Of a stretch of 64,000 bases of DNA, positions 12,077-23,313 are shown piece after piece. Numbering within the stretch: the first letter of the stretch is position 1; every line of letters starts with the position of its first letter. A program made the translations under genes and the position numbers. The notes beneath the pieces are model-generated. The model had not been told where the DNA came from. It saw nothing but the letters and a program-made list of their open reading frames with translations, and ran no database searches. The stretch comes from Micromonospora coxensis (GTDB taxonomy: Bacteria > Actinomycetota > Actinomycetes > Mycobacteriales > Micromonosporaceae), in the NCBI RefSeq assembly GCF_900090295.1, contig NZ_LT607753.1:6076001-6140000 (forward strand). Reading direction: 5' to 3'.

Positions 12077-12946
12077 ATGGGTGAGATCAAGGTGGGCACC
12101 GCGTCCTGGACCGACCGGACCCTGCTGGACTCCGGGTGGTATCCGCAGACCGCGGACACGCCGGAGAAGCGCCTGGCGTACTACGCCCGGCAGTTCCCGC
12201 TGGTCGAGGTGGACGCCACCTACTACTCGCCGCCGGCCGAGCGGACCGCGCGGCTGTGGGTGGAGCGGACCCCGCCCGGGTTCACCTTCAACATCAAGGC
12301 GTTCAGCCTGCTGACCGGGCACCCCACCCGGGTCTCCGCGCTCTACAAGGACCTGCGGCCGGACACCGACAAGCGCAACCTCTACCCGGACGACCTGCCC
12401 GCGCAGGCGTACGAGGAGGTCTGGACGCGGTTCCTGACCGCGCTCGACCCGCTGGTCGAGGCCGGCAAGCTGGGCGCGGTGCTGTTCCAGTTCCCGCCCT
12501 GGTTCACCATCAAGCGGGCCAACAAGGAGTACCTGCTGGAGGTCCAGCGGCGCTGCCGCCCGCTGCGGCCGGTCTTCGAGTTCCGGCACGCCTCCTGGTT
12601 CGACGGCGACAACGCCGACGAGACCCTGGACTTCCTGCGCCGGCACGAGCTGGCGTACGTCTGCGTCGACATGCCCCAGGGGCACCGCAACTCGGTGCCG
12701 CCGGTGCTGGCCGCCACCGCCGACCTGGCCGTGGTGCGCTTCCACGGGCACAGCGACAAGTGGACCAGCACCGACATCCACGAGAAGTTCGGCTACCGCT
12801 ACTCGGCCCGTGAGTTGCGGGACTGGGCGCCGAAGCTGCGGGAGCTGGCGGACGCCGCCGACCGGACCCACGTGCTGATGAACAACTGCTACCGCGACTA
12901 CGCCCAGACCAACGGCCAGCAGTTGCAGGACCTGCTCGGCGCGTGA
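12077..12946 (+). CDS. DUF72 protein (copy 1)
   Basis: The 289-aa protein is a full-length DUF72 TIM-barrel-like protein: GTASWTDRTLLDSGWYP at the start, then EVDATYYSPP, FTFNIKAFSLLTGH, VLFQFPPWF, FEFRHASWFD and a C-terminal HVLMNNCYRDYAQTNGQQL. These match the conserved blocks of the family, whose biochemical function is not settled. It follows the zinc-finger gene by 48 nt. A divergent shorter DUF72 paralogue lies 0.9 kb downstream on the other strand. Confidence 0.9.
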   Translation: MGEIKVGTASWTDRTLLDSGWYPQTADTPEKRLAYYARQFPLVEVDATYYSPPAERTARLWVERTPPGFTFNIKAFSLLTGHPTRVSALYKDLRPDTDKRNLYPDDLPAQAYEEVWTRFLTALDPLVEAGKLGAVLFQFPPWFTIKRANKEYLLEVQRRCRPLRPVFEFRHASWFDGDNADETLDFLRRHELAYVCVDMPQGHRNSVPPVLAATADLAVVRFHGHSDKWTSTDIHEKFGYRYSARELRDWAPKLRELADAADRTHVLMNNCYRDYAQTNGQQLQDLLGA

Positions 12947-13819: not shown

Positions 13820-14572
13820 TCAGGCCGTGACGCGGCTGACCGGGTGCCCGGCCCGGCCGGCCAGCCCGGCGAAGGCGACCGCGTCGACCACCGCGGCACC
13901 TCCCGGGTCGTTGTTGAAGTACACGTACGCCGGCTGCGCGTCGTCGAAGGCCGCGCCGAGGCGGCGTACCCAGGTGGCGAGCGCCGTGCGCCCGTAGCGC
14001 GGCCACGGCCGGGCCCGCCCCTCGTGCAGCCGCAGGTACCCGAAGTCGGTGGTCCGCCACAGCGGGGTGACCGGCCGGCCGAGCCGGTCGGCCCAGACCA
14101 ACGCCGCGCGGCGGCGCTCCAGCACCCGGCGCACCTCGTCGGTCCACCAGGACGGGTGGCGCGGCTCCACCGCCACCCGCACCTCGGCGGGGAACAGCCG
14201 CAGGGTCGCGTCGAGCGCGTCGGCGTCGGCCGGCAGGTTCGGCGGGAGCTGCACCAGCACCGGCCCGAGCCGGTCGCCGAGCGCGGTGGCCCGGCCCAGG
14301 AAGCGGGCGACCGGCTCCGCCGGGTCCCGCAGCCGTTTGACGTGGGTCAGGTAGCGGCTCATCTTGACCGCCACGCAGAAGTCCGCCGGGGTACGCGCCC
14401 GCCAGGCGGCGAAGGTCTCCCGCTCGGGCAGCCGGTAGAAGGCGTTGTTGACCTCCACGGTGGCGAACCGGGTGGCGAAGTGTTCCAGCCAGAGCCGCTG
14501 CGGCAGCCTCGCCGGGTAGAACCGCTCCCGCCAGTCGCGGTACTGCCACCCCGACGTGCCGACCAGGAACAC
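13820..14572 (-). CDS. DUF72 protein (copy 2, short)
   Basis: A second DUF72 member of 250 aa: VGTSGWQYRDWRERFYP, EVNNAFYRLPERETF, FCVAVKMSRYLTHVKRL, PVLVQLPPNLPAD, VAVEPRHPSWW and a late YVYFNNDPGGAAVVDA. It keeps the family blocks but is about 40 residues shorter than the other copy and clearly divergent, so the two belong to different subfamilies. Start is GTG 14572, 9 nt beyond the stop of the PIG-L gene, so the two are probably co-transcribed. Confidence 0.9.
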   Translation of the reverse strand: MFLVGTSGWQYRDWRERFYPARLPQRLWLEHFATRFATVEVNNAFYRLPERETFAAWRARTPADFCVAVKMSRYLTHVKRLRDPAEPVARFLGRATALGDRLGPVLVQLPPNLPADADALDATLRLFPAEVRVAVEPRHPSWWTDEVRRVLERRRAALVWADRLGRPVTPLWRTTDFGYLRLHEGRARPWPRYGRTALATWVRRLGAAFDDAQPAYVYFNNDPGGAAVVDAVAFAGLAGRAGHPVSRVTA

Positions 14573-17011: not shown

Positions 17012-17106
17012 TCTACGGTGTGGTTAGAGAAGATCGCGCGTGGGGTACCACCCGCTGCACGACGAACCCCGACCGACGGCGGGGCGGCACACCCGAGGGA
17101 GCATCC

Positions 17107-17412
17107 ATGGCACTCAACGACGATGACATGCAGACCACCAGCGGCGGCGGCCTCGAGGGCCCGGCCGACGGCGGCGCGACCCCGGGTCACCAGGACGGTG
17201 GCGCCGATGGTGGTGCCGAGGGTCCGGCCGATGGCGGTGCGACCCCGGGCCAGCAGGACGGTGGCGCCGATGGTGGTGCCGAGGGTCCGGCCGATGGTGG
17301 TGCGACCCCGGGCCAGCAGGACGGTGGCGCCGATGGTGGTGCCGAGGGTCCGGCCGACGGTGGTGCGACCCCGGGTCACCAGGACGGTGGCGCCGACGGC
17401 AGCGCGTCCTGA
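17107..17412 (+). CDS. Tandem-repeat Gly/Asp/Ala-rich peptide, candidate substrate of the adjacent oxygenase
   Basis: The 101-aa product is a short leader-like start (MALNDDDMQTTSGGG) followed by four 21-residue repeats with the pattern EGPADGGATPGxQDGGADGGA, x being His in repeats 1 and 4 and Gln in 2 and 3. There is no signal peptide, cysteine, lysine or aromatic residue; the protein is strongly acidic and must be unstructured. A GAGGGAG ribosome site precedes ATG 17107. Only 9 nt separate its stop from the JmjC/cupin oxygenase gene, so the two are almost certainly an operon. The repeats look like a hydroxylation substrate, possibly a RiPP precursor; no family is recognised. Confidence 0.8.
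   Translation: MALNDDDMQTTSGGGLEGPADGGATPGHQDGGADGGAEGPADGGATPGQQDGGADGGAEGPADGGATPGQQDGGADGGAEGPADGGATPGHQDGGADGSAS
17155..17406 (+). repeat. Four tandem 63-bp coding repeats
   Basis: Units lie at 17155-17217, 17218-17280, 17281-17343 and 17344-17406 and are in frame. Differences are mostly third-codon changes, plus CAC/CAG swaps that alternate His and Gln. This suggests amplification and selection on the protein. Confidence 0.9.
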
Positions 17413-17421
17413 CGGATCGTC

Positions 17422-18696
17422 GTGACGATCGTCGACCCGCCGGGCGGCCACGGCCGCCCGGCGGTTCCGTCCCGCGCCCTGGCGGCCCTCACGCGCTGCG
17501 TCGGCGTCGAGCCGGCCAAGTTCGCCGCCGCGTACTGGGGCCGCGAGCCGCTGCTCTCCCGTGCCGACGAGCTACCCCACCCGCACGGCTTCACCGACCT
17601 GCTCAGCCCCGCCGACGCCGACGAGCTGCTCAGCCGGCGCGGCCTGCGTACCCCGTTCCTGCGGGTGGCCAAGGACGGCCAGCTCGTGCCCGCGGCCCGC
17701 TACACCGGCGGTGGTGGCGCGGGCGCCGAGATCGGTGACCAGGTCCTCGACGAGAAGGTGCTGGAGCTGTACGCCTCCGGCGCGACCCTGGTGCTGCAGG
17801 GCCTGCACCGCACCTGGCCCGCGCTCGTCGACTTCGCCCGCGACCTCGGCGCCGCGCTCGCCCAGCCGCTCCAGGTCAACGCCTACCTGACCCCGGCCGG
17901 CAGCCAGGGCTTCGCCACCCACTACGACACCCACGACGTGTTCGTCCTGCAGGTCGACGGTCGCAAGCACTGGCGGATCCACCCGCCGGTGCTGCCCGAC
18001 CCGCTGGAGAGGCAGCCGTGGGGCGGCCGGGCCGACGAGGTCTCCGCCACCGCCTCCGGACCCGCCGCCCTCGACGTGGTCCTCGAACCGGGGGACGCGC
18101 TCTACCTGCCGCGTGGCTGGCTGCACAGCGCCCAGGCGCAGGAGTCCAGCTCCCTGCACCTGACCGTCGGCATCCGGGCGCTGACCCGGTACGCCCTGGT
18201 CGAGGAGCTGTTGGCGCTCGCCGCCGAGGACCCCCGGCTGCGGGCCGGCCTGCCCTTCGGCACCGACGTCGCCGACCCGGACGCGATCGAGCCCGAACTC
18301 ACCGAGACCGTCGAGGCGCTGCGCGACTGGCTGCTGCGCGCCGACCCGGCTGCGGTGGCCGCCGGGCTGCGGCGGCGGGCCTGGCCGGCGGCCCGGCCGG
18401 CGCCGATCCGGCCCCTCGCGCAGGCCGCCGCGCTCGCGGCGCTCGATCCGGACCACCGCATCGCCCCGCGTGGGGGACTGCGCTGGCAACTCACCCCGAC
18501 CGACGACGGCAAGGTCGCGCTGCGGCTGGTCGACCGGACCGTCACCCTGCCCGGGCAGTGCGAGGCGGCGCTGCGCGCGCTGCTCACCGCCGACGTGATC
18601 CGGGTCGGGGACCTGCCCGGGCTGGACGACGACGCCGACCGGCTGGTGCTGGCCCGCCGGCTGCTGCGCGAGGCGGTCGCCGTACCGGCCGAGTGA
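17422..18696 (+). CDS. JmjC/cupin-fold Fe(II)/2-oxoglutarate oxygenase (ribosomal oxygenase-like)
   Basis: The 424-aa protein belongs to the cupin_4/JmjC group that contains YcfD (RoxA), MINA and NO66. The iron triad is visible: His167 and Asp169 in THYDTHD and His235 in RGWLHSA; Lys182 in the GRKHW motif probably binds 2-oxoglutarate. Residues 20-75 match the conserved N-terminus (FAAAYWGREPLL), and the C-terminal third is the helical dimerisation plus winged-helix part. Known relatives hydroxylate His or Arg in ribosomal proteins; here the repeat peptide encoded 9 nt upstream is a more likely partner. Start is GTG 17422. Confidence 0.9.
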   Translation: MTIVDPPGGHGRPAVPSRALAALTRCVGVEPAKFAAAYWGREPLLSRADELPHPHGFTDLLSPADADELLSRRGLRTPFLRVAKDGQLVPAARYTGGGGAGAEIGDQVLDEKVLELYASGATLVLQGLHRTWPALVDFARDLGAALAQPLQVNAYLTPAGSQGFATHYDTHDVFVLQVDGRKHWRIHPPVLPDPLERQPWGGRADEVSATASGPAALDVVLEPGDALYLPRGWLHSAQAQESSSLHLTVGIRALTRYALVEELLALAAEDPRLRAGLPFGTDVADPDAIEPELTETVEALRDWLLRADPAAVAAGLRRRAWPAARPAPIRPLAQAAALAALDPDHRIAPRGGLRWQLTPTDDGKVALRLVDRTVTLPGQCEAALRALLTADVIRVGDLPGLDDDADRLVLARRLLREAVAVPAE

Positions 18697-18801: not shown

Positions 18802-19467
18802 TCAGCGGGTCGCGACCAGCAGCGCCACGGTGGTCGCCAACCCGGCGATCAGCACGATCGCCGCCGGCCGCGGGCCGAGCAGCGCGTGTCGCCGGTCCGC
18901 CAGCCGCTTCGCCGGGGCCAGGCCCACCAGCGGGCCGAGCAGCGTCACCACCAGCGCCAGCACCGGCATCCCCGCCGCCAGGTCGCCGCCGTAGCGCACC
19001 CCCAGCGCGCGGGCGCCGGCCCCCAGCGCGTACGCGAGCAGCGCGCCGGCCACCCCGCAGAGCGCCAGCAGCGGGTTCGCCGAGCCCGGCAGCTCACCCG
19101 GCTGCCCGGCCCGGTCCAACAGGTCCCGTACCCCGCGCAGCGACGCCACCGGGTCCCCGCCGGCGTCCCGCGCCGGCCCCGGCGGCGGCCCCAGCCGGCG
19201 GGCGCCCAGCCCCACCCGGCCGCGCAGCTCCGCCCAGAGGTGGCCCACCTCGGCGTCCACCCGGTCCACCATGGCCCGCGCCTCCGCCACCTCCGCCTCG
19301 GCCCGGCGCAGCTGCTCGGCGGCCTCGGCCACCGCCCGGTCGGCGGCGGCGCACTGCTGGTCGTGCCACGCCTGCGCCTCGGCGCGCTGGGCCCGGACCC
19401 GGCCGGTCAGCTCGGCGAGGCGGCGGACGTGGGCGGCGTACGTGTCACTGGCGACCGGTTCGTTCAT
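18802..19467 (-). CDS. Coiled-coil membrane protein of the FtsK cassette
   Basis: The 221-aa protein has an N-terminal coiled coil (about residues 8-85, with heptad-like AEAQAWHDQQCAAADRAV) and three likely C-terminal membrane helices (about 138-158, 168-185 and 198-218). No enzymatic motif is present. ATG 19467 is chosen because it gives the ATGA overlap with the ftsK-like stop; the open frame further upstream lies inside ftsK. It is the last gene of a four-gene leftward operon and is a plausible membrane anchor for the FtsK-like ATPase. Confidence 0.75.
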   Translation of the reverse strand: MNEPVASDTYAAHVRRLAELTGRVRAQRAEAQAWHDQQCAAADRAVAEAAEQLRRAEAEVAEARAMVDRVDAEVGHLWAELRGRVGLGARRLGPPPGPARDAGGDPVASLRGVRDLLDRAGQPGELPGSANPLLALCGVAGALLAYALGAGARALGVRYGGDLAAGMPVLALVVTLLGPLVGLAPAKRLADRRHALLGPRPAAIVLIAGLATTVALLVATR

Positions 19468-22148
19468 CGGGACGGACCATAAGGGATGATCACCTGTCCG
19501 GTGCGGTGCACCGCGCGGTCGAAGAAGAGCCCGCGCCACGGCCGGGGGTACCAGTCCGGCCCCCCGGTGCCCGGGTACAGCGCCGAGCCCAGCTCACCGC
19601 CCTGCACGTCCAGCGCCACCCACGCCCCGATCTGGTCGGTGCGTGCCGCCGGACCGCCCAGGTCGGCCCGCATCCGGGCCACCCCGCGCCACCAGGCCAG
19701 CACGTGGGTACGCCGCTCCGGACCGTCGTGCAGGATGCGGCGCAGCCGGTCCAGCCCGCTACGCCCGCCGACCGACGTCGACAGCGCACCGGCCGCCGCG
19801 TCGACGGCGAACAGCAGCAGGTAGTGCGGGGTGGCCGGGGTGCCCGGCCGGGCCAGCGCCTCGACCGTCTCGGCCATCAGCTCCGGCACCGTCTCCTCGT
19901 CGTACCAGGCGGCGTCGTCGGCCAGGTCCTCGTACAGGGCGCGGGCCGCCGGGTCGGCGTCCGGGTCGAGGCAGGCGATGGAGAACCGGGCGGCGCCGGG
20001 CCGGTGCTGCCGGGCCAGCGAGCGGGCCGCGGCGTCGAGCACCGCGCACGCCTCGTCGACCCGGGTGCCGAGCACCGCCAGGTTGCGTCCGGGCGCCCGG
20101 GGCAGCCGCAGCGCCGCCGAGCGGGCCTGCACGTCGATGATCTCCCCGAGCAGCGCCACCGGGTTGCGGGGCGCGGCGTCCCCGGCCGGCGGGGCCAGCG
20201 CGCGGAAGTCCGGCGCGTCGGCCAGCCGGGGGACCGCGTCGCCGTCGAAGAGCCGGGCCGGGGCGGCGTCGGCCGGGCGCATCCGCCACAGCCGGTGCTG
20301 CAACTCGCTCCACGTCTCCCAGTCGCCGGCCGACGGGATCCGCGCCACCTGGTTGCCCTCGGTCATCCCGGACTCGGCGTTGACCACCGCGTGGTACTTC
20401 GGCAGCGCCTGCGCGGCGTCGTTGCGCTCGGCCAGGATCCGCAGCGCCTTCGGCAGCGCGATCCGCAGGGTGAACTGGGCGACCAGCGCCGGGCGCCCCC
20501 ACAGCGCCTCGATGCCGCGTACGTCCTGCGAGGCGAGCACCAGGTGGATGCCCTGCGAGCGGCCCCGCCGGGCCAGGTCCTCCAACAGGTCGGCGGCCTC
20601 CCGGGCCACCACGTCCCGGCCGGCCAGCAGGGCCTGGAACTCGTCCACCACCGCCACGATCCGGGGCCAGTGCCCGGTCGGGTCCACCGCCCGCAGCTCG
20701 GCGAGCTTGGTGACCTCGTGCTTCTTCGCCGCGTCGGCGCGGCGGCGCAGCTCCTCGGCGAGGAAGCGCAGCAGCGCCAGCCCGAACTCCCGGTCGGTGT
20801 TGACGTTGATGCCGACCAGCCGCATGTGCGGCAGCCAGCTCGGGTCGCGCCGGCCCTGCGCGAACCGGGCGAAGGACACCCCCTCCTTGAAGTCGAGCAG
20901 GTAGAACTCCAGCTCGGCGGGGGAGTACCGGGCGGCCAGCGCGCCGATCCAGGCGAAGATCAGATTGGTCTTGCCGGTGCCGGACGGGCCGCCGATCAGC
21001 GCGTGCGGCGGGTAGTCGCCCAGGGTCAGCAGGACCGGCCGGCCGTGCGGGCCCTCACCGATCGGGGCGGTGAGCCCGTGCGCCGAGTCCTCCTTCCACA
21101 TCTGCTCGGGCGGGGGCAGCAGGTCGGTGAAGGGGGTCGGCGGGGGACCGGCGTTGACCCGGGAGGCGATCTCCCGGCAGGTCTCGGTGACCAGGGTGGC
21201 CGGCGGCGGCGGGTCGAGGCGTACCGGCAGGCCGCTCGGGCCGCCCACCCGGGCCTCGCCCTTCTCGGCGGTGATCCGGGTCAGCGTCGCGTCGTCCGGC
21301 AGGTCGATGCCCCGGACCACCAGGTGCACCCCGCAGGCCGCCCCGGTGCGCAGCACCCGGTCGAGTTGGCCGCGCTCGTGCCGGGACGGCTCGTCCCCGC
21401 CGAGCAGCACCGCCACCCGCCACGGCTCCGGCCGGCGGCCGGTCGCCGCGGCCAGCTCGCGCAGCGAGGCGTACTCGCCGGCGAGCACGGTCTCGTTGAT
21501 CCGGCGGATCTGCTCGACCAGGTCGTCCAGGAGCCGGCCCAGGCCGCCCGGGCCGACGAAGGTGAGCAGTCCGGCGGTGCCGAGCGGGGCGAACCCGGCC
21601 AGCCCGCCGCCCAGGTGCTCCGGGTCGTACCCGTAGAGCCGCACCGCGCCGGGGTCGGCCCGGCCGACGCCGCGCAGCAGCAGCGCGGACACCACGGCGT
21701 CACCACCGTGCCGGTCGGCCCCGGCCAGGTGCACGTGCCCGGCGTCCAGCAGCGGCACCAGCGCCGGCACCGGTTCCGCGCCGGGGACGCGCAGCGTGCC
21801 CACCCGTACCGGGCCGATCGGCTCGCCCCGCGCGGCCGGCGTCGCGTGCCACTGCGGCCAGGGCGCGGACGCCGCGCCCGGGGCCTCCCGCAGCGCGGCG
21901 GCGGCCGTGCGGCGGGCCAGCTCGCCGATCCGCGCGGCGTGCCGGTCGTCGATCTCGGCCAACCGCCGGTCCCGCTCCGCGGCGACCCGCTGCGGCACGG
22001 CGGCGGCGGCCCGTCGCGTCCGGGCCAGCCGCTCCCGGGCGCCGGTCAGCTCCGTCTCGGCGGCGGCCACCCGGGCACGGGTGGCGCCGAGTGCCTCGGA
22101 GAGCATCCCGCGTACCCGGGAGACGAGCTGCCCGCGCAGGTCAGCCAC
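19464..22148 (-). CDS. FtsK/SpoIIIE-type ATPase
   Basis: This 894-aa protein has an N-terminal coiled coil (about residues 1-90), then a degenerate domain, an FtsK/SpoIIIE motor (about 340-650) and a second degenerate ATPase-like region to the end. The motor has Walker A GGPSGTGKT near residue 388 and Walker B IVAVVDEF near 496, with a HLVLASQDVRG sensor segment. It lacks the four N-terminal membrane helices and the gamma domain of chromosomal FtsK, so it is not the division protein; the tandem ATPase layout recalls EccC of type VII secretion. It overlaps both neighbours (8 nt upstream, 4 nt downstream). Confidence 0.85.
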   Translation of the reverse strand: MADLRGQLVSRVRGMLSEALGATRARVAAAETELTGARERLARTRRAAAAVPQRVAAERDRRLAEIDDRHAARIGELARRTAAAALREAPGAASAPWPQWHATPAARGEPIGPVRVGTLRVPGAEPVPALVPLLDAGHVHLAGADRHGGDAVVSALLLRGVGRADPGAVRLYGYDPEHLGGGLAGFAPLGTAGLLTFVGPGGLGRLLDDLVEQIRRINETVLAGEYASLRELAAATGRRPEPWRVAVLLGGDEPSRHERGQLDRVLRTGAACGVHLVVRGIDLPDDATLTRITAEKGEARVGGPSGLPVRLDPPPPATLVTETCREIASRVNAGPPPTPFTDLLPPPEQMWKEDSAHGLTAPIGEGPHGRPVLLTLGDYPPHALIGGPSGTGKTNLIFAWIGALAARYSPAELEFYLLDFKEGVSFARFAQGRRDPSWLPHMRLVGINVNTDREFGLALLRFLAEELRRRADAAKKHEVTKLAELRAVDPTGHWPRIVAVVDEFQALLAGRDVVAREAADLLEDLARRGRSQGIHLVLASQDVRGIEALWGRPALVAQFTLRIALPKALRILAERNDAAQALPKYHAVVNAESGMTEGNQVARIPSAGDWETWSELQHRLWRMRPADAAPARLFDGDAVPRLADAPDFRALAPPAGDAAPRNPVALLGEIIDVQARSAALRLPRAPGRNLAVLGTRVDEACAVLDAAARSLARQHRPGAARFSIACLDPDADPAARALYEDLADDAAWYDEETVPELMAETVEALARPGTPATPHYLLLFAVDAAAGALSTSVGGRSGLDRLRRILHDGPERRTHVLAWWRGVARMRADLGGPAARTDQIGAWVALDVQGGELGSALYPGTGGPDWYPRPWRGLFFDRAVHRTGQVIIPYGPSR

Positions 22149-23043
22149 GGCGTCCGCCGTCGGGCGCCGGCTGCCGGCGCGGGTCGGGCCCGTCGGCGGG
22201 AGGCAGGTCCCGGCCCAGCCGGGCCAGCAGCACGGCGGTCGCCACCCCGGCCGTCACGGCGGGGTCGGCGGCGTGCGGCTGCTCCTCGCCCGCGCCCCGG
22301 CGCGGCGGGGGCATCCGGCAGATCCGGGTGAGCAGGGTGTCCAGCACCGGCGGCGGCAGACCGGGCAGCAGGTCACGCACCCGGCCGTCGAGTTCGCCGC
22401 GCAGCCGGCCCAGGTCGTCGGCGCGGGGCGGATGTCCCAGCAGCTCCCCGGCCAGGTCGCGCAGCAGGGGCGGGGCGAGGGCGGCCATGCCGAGGCCGAC
22501 GTCGGCGTGCGCGCGGCGCAGCTCCCGGTGCAGCCGGTCCCGGTCGCCGGAGCGGACGCCGCCCGCCACCCGGCGCAGCAGCTCCCGGGAGTCGGCGACC
22601 CGCTCGTCCGGCTCGTCCGGTGGGCCCTCCGTCCCGCCGGTCAGCTCGGCCACCCGGACCGACCACCAGCGCTCGACCGTCGGGTCGGCGGCCGGCTCGT
22701 CGGCCGGCGCGGCCGCCGGCGGCCCGTCCTCGCGCGGCGCGTCGTGCTTCGGAGCCCGGCCGGTGGCCGGTGGCGGGGGCGCCCCGTCGGGGGCGAGCCC
22801 GATCGCCGCCAGGTACGCGGTGAGCTGCTCCTGGGCCACCCGCAGCGCGTGCCCGGCGGCCTCGGCGTGCTCGACGGCGGCGGACAGCTCCGGCACCCCC
22901 ATCGGGTTGGCCGACTCCTGCCGGACCCAGCGCAGCCGCTCGGTGGCCTGGCCGAACTTCTCCAGCGCCAGGGCGAGCTGGGCGAGGGGGAACTCCTCCG
23001 CGGCGGCGCGCACCTGCGCCCCGACGTCCTCCACGATGGACAC
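22141..23043 (-). CDS. Unknown 300-aa protein of the FtsK cassette
   Basis: No domain is recognised. The N-terminal 95 residues are helical and resemble a WXG100-like helical hairpin in length and composition; the middle (about 100-140) is a Pro/Ala-rich linker, and the C-terminal 160 residues are helical and charged. No signal peptide or membrane helix is present. The 8-nt overlap with the ftsK-like gene implies translational coupling, so it probably works with the ATPase as an adaptor or substrate. Confidence 0.7.
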   Translation of the reverse strand: MSIVEDVGAQVRAAAEEFPLAQLALALEKFGQATERLRWVRQESANPMGVPELSAAVEHAEAAGHALRVAQEQLTAYLAAIGLAPDGAPPPPATGRAPKHDAPREDGPPAAAPADEPAADPTVERWWSVRVAELTGGTEGPPDEPDERVADSRELLRRVAGGVRSGDRDRLHRELRRAHADVGLGMAALAPPLLRDLAGELLGHPPRADDLGRLRGELDGRVRDLLPGLPPPVLDTLLTRICRMPPPRRGAGEEQPHAADPAVTAGVATAVLLARLGRDLPPADGPDPRRQPAPDGGRRG

Positions 23044-23052
23044 GGCGGCCGC

Positions 23053-23313
23053 TCAGAGCGTCGAGACGTAGAGCTGCGCCTGCTCCACCGCGACCAGGGT
23101 CGCGGCGAGGCATTCCTCCAGCTCCTGCCCGGCCTGGGTCAGCGAGGCCTGGGCGGCCTCCACGGTCTCGTGCCCGCTGCCCTCCAGGGCCCCGGCCAGG
23201 GTCTGCTGCGCCTCGGAGAGCTTCTCGCCGGCCGCCTGCACCGCTGTCTGACCGTCCCCGATCTGTTGGAGGGCGACCTCGATGGCTGCCTTCAGCTCGG
23301 CGACGCTCGCCAC
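23053..23313 (-). CDS. Small helical protein, first gene of the FtsK cassette
   Basis: The 86-aa product is a two-helix coiled-coil-like chain (ELKAAIEVALQQIGDGQTAV, then AAQASLTQAGQELEECLAAT). The size and helical-hairpin layout recall ESX WXG100 proteins, but the WxG turn is absent. AGGAGG lies 5 nt upstream of the GTG at 23313. Nine nt separate it from the next gene. As the first gene before an FtsK/EccC-like ATPase it could be a secreted or structural partner. Confidence 0.7.
   Translation of the reverse strand: MASVAELKAAIEVALQQIGDGQTAVQAAGEKLSEAQQTLAGALEGSGHETVEAAQASLTQAGQELEECLAATLVAVEQAQLYVSTL

Follow-up and report, generated by a model that had tools for sequence, protein, structure and literature searches.

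A repeat peptide gene paired with a JmjC_2 oxygenase gene across Actinomycetota: a predicted substrate for aspartyl hydroxylation

A 64,000-nucleotide stretch of the Micromonospora coxensis genome (contig NZ_LT607753.1, positions 6,076,001 to 6,140,000; the whole stretch is referred to here as the window) carries a gene for a 101-residue repeat peptide and, 9 nucleotides beyond its stop codon, a gene for an oxygenase of the JmjC_2 family (PF08007). We report that this pair is old and widespread across Actinomycetota, and we propose that it is probably a dedicated substrate and its hydroxylase, together predicted to make a poly-(beta-hydroxy-aspartyl) peptide. The system is apparently undescribed: the open-access literature (most subscription journals lie outside its reach) yielded no account of such a pair. 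The peptide thereby becomes a candidate substrate, identified by gene linkage, for the enzymes of a large orphan branch of bacterial JmjC_2 oxygenases.

A preliminary description of the window had called attention to the peptide, to its four 21-residue repeats and to the short distance separating it from the oxygenase gene, and all three features are borne out by the open reading frames (ORFs; Table 1). Tandem Repeats Finder placed an array at 17154-17396, with a 63-bp unit, 3.9 copies and a 95% match. The peptide indeed contains zero Cys, Lys, Phe, Tyr and Trp residues. The same description had His and Gln alternating at one position of the repeat; the order along the array is actually H, Q, Q, H.

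Conservation and co-inheritance of the pair

The repeat ORF was found next to nearly all assessable orthologues of the oxygenase, the check that had been suggested for the pairing. Relatives of the peptide are present in 31 of 41 genomes compared and in 24 of 25 of the same genus (the window's own included); the sole genus genome without one, a draft of 890 contigs (G014), is missing the enzyme too. Among 30 loci fetched (L021-L050), 28 hold the enzyme, and a repeat ORF lies upstream of it in all 28, one of them cut by a contig end; for the remaining two, the fetched sequence does not include the enzyme. Of 585 confirmed relatives in other genomes, the best 80 were taken as named loci (their records are partly from the same strains as the other genomes compared). 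The repeat was upstream of the enzyme in 79, and the sequence of the lone exception begins just 79 nt ahead of the match. On the draft contigs of L113, L115 and L129, which belong to the 79, the peptide is frame-broken or partial. Draft assemblies were likewise seen to break or shift the frame in or near the repeat array at G003:C9/C35, G010 and G023, and the peptide or its enzyme is therefore easily missed in drafts.

The same arrangement extends well beyond the genus. A sample of 296 genomes across the phylum contained a related enzyme in 42 (E<=1e-25), three of which (G000, G012 and G031) had already been counted elsewhere; the other 39 yielded 40 loci. In 33 of these the peptide gene immediately precedes that of the enzyme, four are without it (L167, L195, L197 and L198), and in three the contig stops less than 140 nt before the enzyme gene. 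Sampling at the level of the order (61 genomes) gave 46 PF08007 matches, distributed over 37 genomes. Thirty of the matches became loci, in 28 of which a repeat peptide was scored within the 3.3-kb locus; the remaining two (G031 and G029) have the peptide too, as seen elsewhere. The other 16 matches comprise L252, L253 and a truncated G037 locus, all with a peptide, and 13 JmjC_2 ORFs without one.

Presence of the peptide follows the phylogeny of the enzyme. In a tree of 69 enzymes, 50 with a peptide, 17 without and two not assessable, the peptide label needs two changes, as compared to a mean of 15.2 when the labels are shuffled. The peptide-linked enzymes form a single group, within which the peptide was lost once (L167), and 16 other peptide-less enzymes fall outside the group. 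The sampled JmjC_2 genes beyond the peptide-linked clade have no repeat peptide, unlike those in the clade of the window enzyme. The pattern of co-inheritance is clear, although the clade cannot be rooted precisely.

The protein sequence of the peptide is held by purifying selection. For 25 distinct four-repeat genes from Micromonosporaceae (300 pairs), the mean proportion of synonymous differences (pS) was 0.43 and that of nonsynonymous differences (pN) 0.075, with a median ratio of 0.10; these figures may feel the effect of gene conversion between repeats, but their direction is clear. Given this ratio and the recurrence of the array beside one enzyme clade across the phylum, a chance low-complexity ORF is ruled out. 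Within 92 repeat units from 23 distinct four-repeat peptides, the aspartates at positions 5, 14 and 18 never vary, and most Gly and Ala positions are invariant as well. Positions 12, 13 and 20 vary freely (12 and 13 being mostly Q, H or R) and positions 9, 10 and 19 rarely.

The oxygenase and its likely target residue

The window enzyme matches the Pfam JmjC_2 profile with E=1.2e-29 and 102.9 bits (cut-off 22). Its iron triad (His167, Asp169 and His235), previously described as intact, is invariant across eight aligned relatives and also in a 47-row alignment. An AlphaFold2 model (pLDDT 93) matches NO66 over residues 13-424, and the enzyme is of the ROX type, with a C-terminal region like that of NO66, which we take to be helical and winged-helix in nature. 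The known ROX oxygenases NO66, MINA53 and YcfD, all of JmjC_2, modify ribosomal proteins (PMC4543633); they differ from the enzyme described here in that a small repeat peptide gene is fixed next to the latter.

We propose that the peptide serves as a multi-site substrate of the JmjC_2 enzyme, which would use Fe(II), 2-oxoglutarate and O2 to hydroxylate the aspartates of the repeats, most likely at the beta carbon. The enzyme would be recruited by a short acidic motif near the N-terminus of the peptide, by the repeats or by both, perhaps via its winged-helix-like C-terminal region. Such a motif, [L/I/V]x[D/E][D/E][D/E][I/M]xT, is found in most of the peptides.

Which residue is modified was addressed by comparing 123 distinct peptides, of which 99 are of a DGGA type (84 Micromonosporaceae-type and 15 others) and 24, from distant lineages, of a DxD type exemplified by DADGTDGDATDGTDGDA; across the set the repeats shift from DGGA to DADGTDGDA type. 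The count excludes nine loci (mis-chosen frame or start, partial array, or an ORF judged not to be a relative), and many of the peptides counted have partly cut leaders, since the script began them at an internal Met. All 123 peptides contain at least six Asp. At least two His are present in 56 of 84 Micromonosporaceae-type, 11 of 15 other DGGA-type and 1 of 24 DxD-type peptides, and at least two Pro in 84 of 84, 15 of 15 and 15 of 24, respectively. The commonest spacings between aspartates go from 4, 9 and 8 in the DGGA type to 3 and 2 in the DxD type, and a small residue (G, A, S or T) follows Asp in 93% and 86% of cases, respectively. Because Asp is abundant in all of the peptides and His and Pro are not, Asp is, on composition, the likeliest target. 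The preliminary description had named Asp, His or Pro; of these Asp is retained, and His and Pro are not kept across the types. His as a universal target is excluded by the composition of the DxD-type peptides.

It is unlikely that the peptide is a substrate modified elsewhere than at Asp, that is, at the His or Gln next to DGGA or at Ala, Gly, Thr or Pro. The closest solved relatives of the enzyme, NO66 and MINA, are named His hydroxylases, and HDGG is frequent in Micromonosporaceae and their near relatives, as such a target would predict. However, neither His nor Pro is general, as the counts above indicate; position 13 of the repeat can be H, Q, R or A across the 92 units; and one peptide (L155, the same place as L182) has repeats of D, A, S, T and G that contain no His or Pro. 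Gly and Ala are, on chemical grounds, unlikely hydroxylation sites.

Hydroxylation of Asp in repeats by a 2-oxoglutarate oxygenase would be in keeping with known enzymes: FIH and AspH hydroxylate Asp and Asn of repeated domains, and FIH, a JmjC enzyme, is reported to do so at Asp in ankyrin repeats (PMC4543633). The proposed target, Asp of a ribosomal peptide, is also shared, by description, with the graspetide enzymes SmaO/SmaX, for which beta-hydroxylation of Asp and then aminomalonate are reported (PMC13097080); no graspetide synthetase was seen beside the window pair. In the case of the biphenomycin hydroxylases BipG, BpmG and PbsQ, a JmjC or cupin-like oxygenase gene adjoins the precursor peptide gene, as here, and the target is Orn (PMC12257519, PMC12707348). 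By description, however, biphenomycin is made by a larger cluster that includes a multinuclear non-heme iron-dependent oxidative enzyme (MNIO), a B12 radical S-adenosylmethionine enzyme, an arginase and a protease, whereas the system described here is a two- or three-gene unit with an Asp-rich repeat peptide.

Could the peptide instead be a small acidic cofactor, chaperone or regulator of an enzyme that acts on, for example, a ribosomal protein? The full ROX architecture of the enzyme is compatible with this, as is the activity of known ROX members on ribosomal proteins (PMC4543633). Yet the number of repeats varies (2 to 8 DGGAD in each DGGA-type peptide) and the surroundings of Asp are rebuilt between types while the pairing stays constant, from which we infer a multi-site substrate rather than a binding partner; moreover, the 16 sampled JmjC_2 enzymes outside the clade manage without a peptide. 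We consider a non-substrate role distinctly unlikely. The earlier suggestion that the peptide is the substrate of its neighbor thus stands firmly as regards the dedicated pairing and as a prediction as regards the chemistry.

Several observations weigh against a dedicated pair acting through Asp. The L167 enzyme lies inside the clade and yet has no recognizable peptide; a search of its genome (G178) with the peptide of a sister lineage found nothing, a weak result given that the two lineages may be too far apart for such a query. Support for the node joining the peptide clade is only 80 by the Shimodaira-Hasegawa-like approximate likelihood ratio test (SH-aLRT), and several control enzymes are on long branches. 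Two genus drafts of 800 and 990 contigs (G010 and G023) have a peptide match at a contig end and no orthologous enzyme that we could find, which is likely due to broken assembly. Ala and Gly in the repeats are as constant as Asp, and His immediately precedes 16% of the Asp in DGGA-type peptides. The closest relatives of named function in the PDB modify ribosomal proteins at His or Arg. The L164 and L166 peptides lack the leader-like motif, and recognition through a leader is therefore not general. Finally, the stress-type promoter described below was matched outside Micromonosporaceae in 1 of 32 phylum-sample loci, with 0.28 expected.

No known family was assigned to the window peptide in NCBIfam or Pfam at E up to 1, or to three relatives' peptides in NCBIfam. 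Two related peptides (P0017 and P0022) are labeled "BatC protein" in public records; in a literature search with that name, only an unrelated Bacteroides paper contained the word, and the source of the name was not found. Likewise, our literature search on the Bacillus subtilis relative YxbC returned nothing on its function. Variant peptides also occur beside the same kind of enzyme: one (L186, the same place as L159) has two copies of PTEDDENLDAPGEHSQDTGDE, and another (L175, the same place as L148) repeats units resembling SADGTDQGVEGGTYGPRDA that include Arg and Tyr.

A third gene, a stress-type promoter and the fate of the product

The neighborhood of the pair was surveyed by clustering the genes of the 40 phylum-sample loci (up to 18 kb each; ORFs of at least 80 aa, E<=1e-10; clusters in five or fewer loci were left unannotated). 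Besides antisense shadows, only the enzyme gene and one other are common to more than five of the loci, and no widely shared protease, exporter or transporter, or further tailoring gene was seen beside the pair. The other gene, on the coding strand directly after the enzyme, encodes a PF06999 protein (a thioredoxin-like ferredoxin) of about 300 aa and was found in 27 of 40 loci by clustering and in 30 of 40 by tblastn. Of the 33 pairs with a peptide, 28 are followed by it, as are none of the four enzymes without a peptide and two of the three contig-edge loci; among the five pairs that lack it, the L184 sequence stops at the enzyme. All seven genomes of the same order and other genera that have a peptide match contain a relative, adjacent in six and on another contig in one. 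By contrast, no relative was detected at E<=1e-3 in the window's genome (G000) or in the other 24 of its genus, and the gene was found in none of the 98 loci examined from Micromonosporaceae, although for 89 of them the sequence continues downstream for 1.5 kb or more (some loci are of the same strain). Micromonosporaceae appear to have lost it.

Two members match the PF06999 profile with E=3.4e-21 and 1.3e-13 (76.6 and 51.9 bits; cut-off 34.9). A CxxG..D.CC stretch, holding CX8C, is found in 26 of 27 and HX3D (SHxGGDRFA) in place of HX3H in 23 of 27, the other four being unmatched by the regular expression. The motif of yeast Aim32 is CX8CXnHX3H (PMC8482512); relative to Aim32 and the sucrase/ferredoxin-like PF06999 proteins, CX8C is kept and the second His of HX3H is replaced by Asp. 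A search of PDB sequences with one of the proteins gave nothing significant, the best match (E 1.6) being a [2Fe-2S] ferredoxin. Conceivably, the PF06999 protein is an electron or iron donor to the oxygenase, and in many lineages this adjacent-encoded ferredoxin might assist hydroxylation, perhaps by keeping the iron reduced over many turnovers. In addition, an ATP-grasp-like gene lies just upstream of the peptide gene in two related genomes (L168 and L169, the same places as L141 and L142); it resembles what we take to be a PGM1-like ATP-grasp peptide ligase, and the clusters that spanned at least three loci did not include it.

In Micromonosporaceae the pair seems mostly to lie behind a SigB-type stress promoter. 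The motif GTT-N14..18-GGGTA was present in 60 of 82 upstream regions (58 of 80 distinct ones), as compared to a mean of 0.5 in two-base-block shuffles, and in none of the four non-Micromonosporaceae regions among the 82. The commonest form, GTTAGA-N14-GGGTAC, accounts for 35 of 57, and GTTAGA-N13/14-GGGTAC occurs twice in the 6.77 Mb genome. In Streptomyces coelicolor, SigB-type promoters have a matching motif, for example GTTAGA-N13-GGGTAC in SCO5555p (PMC8346170). Because it is not seen in the phylum-sample loci beyond the single match noted above, stress control looks like a trait of the family and not a part of the ancestral system.

What becomes of the product? The loci show an arrangement expected of a ribosomally synthesized and post-translationally modified peptide (RiPP), a precursor gene beside a dedicated enzyme that would modify it, and a classical exported RiPP, with leader removal and export left to unlinked housekeeping genes, would account for the leader-like motif in most peptides and for the multi-core array; JmjC enzymes are, in addition, known as RiPP tailors (PMC12257519, PMC12707348). 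This explanation is nonetheless highly unlikely in view of the missing further genes, the core-genome-like distribution in the genus and the stress-type promoter. The preliminary description had offered a hydroxylated RiPP or a modified repeat protein as candidates; the placement of precursor beside enzyme is borne out, and the RiPP label is made less secure by the lack of a widely shared protease or transporter and by the core-like spread. For these same reasons, and in view of the stress-type promoter, an intracellular modified repeat protein fits better than a secreted antibiotic, and the hydroxylated peptide would most likely remain intracellular, with a role in metal binding or in stress.

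Metal binding by beta-hydroxy-Asp is an attractive candidate function. More tentatively, and with doubt on balance, one may picture phylum-wide poly-(beta-hydroxyaspartate) peptides, with metal-chelating groups on a repeat scaffold and a [2Fe-2S] companion, as an intracellular buffer of iron or other metals whose maturation would require an ample supply of both iron and O2. If Asp is hydroxylated, the pair would represent a new family of peptide modification across Actinomycetota in which each molecule is modified at many sites. Its minimal unit would consist of two genes, which may be expressible in E. coli, and metal ligands of the beta-hydroxy-Asp kind might then be reached by a ribosomal route.

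The window locus and its surroundings

The features of the locus are collected in Table 1. The likely ribosome-binding sequence of the peptide gene, GAGGGAG, also lies inside the final 25 bases of 42 of the 82 upstream regions.

Table 1. Positions of features in the window
Feature	Position	Strand	Remarks
SigB-type promoter GTTAGA-N14-GGGTAC	17023..17048	+	Putative; sole GTTANN-N13..15-GGGTAC match in the window, 0.01 expected
Likely ribosome-binding site GAGGGAG of the peptide gene	17096..17102	+	Read from the sequence
Repeat peptide gene, ATG start, 101 aa	17107..17412	+	Leader-like MALNDDDMQTTSGGGL, then four 21-aa repeats
Four 21-aa repeats	17155..17406	+	Consensus EGPADGGATPG[QH][QH]DGGADG[GS]A
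JmjC_2 (PF08007) Fe(II)/2-oxoglutarate oxygenase gene, 424 aa	17422..18696	+	GTG start at 17422
DUF72 (PF01904) gene	12077..12946	+	
DUF72 (PF01904) gene	13820..14572	-	
FtsK/SpoIIIE-like ATPase gene	18802..23313	-	

The neighbors of the pair in the window are DUF72, PIG-L, GH10 and FtsK-like genes. The two DUF72 genes are about 1 kb apart on opposite strands. The same-strand neighbors of the FtsK/SpoIIIE-like gene, among them an 86-aa ORF, fall below the Pfam cut-offs; as a guess, this gene and its neighbors could form a secretion-type locus.
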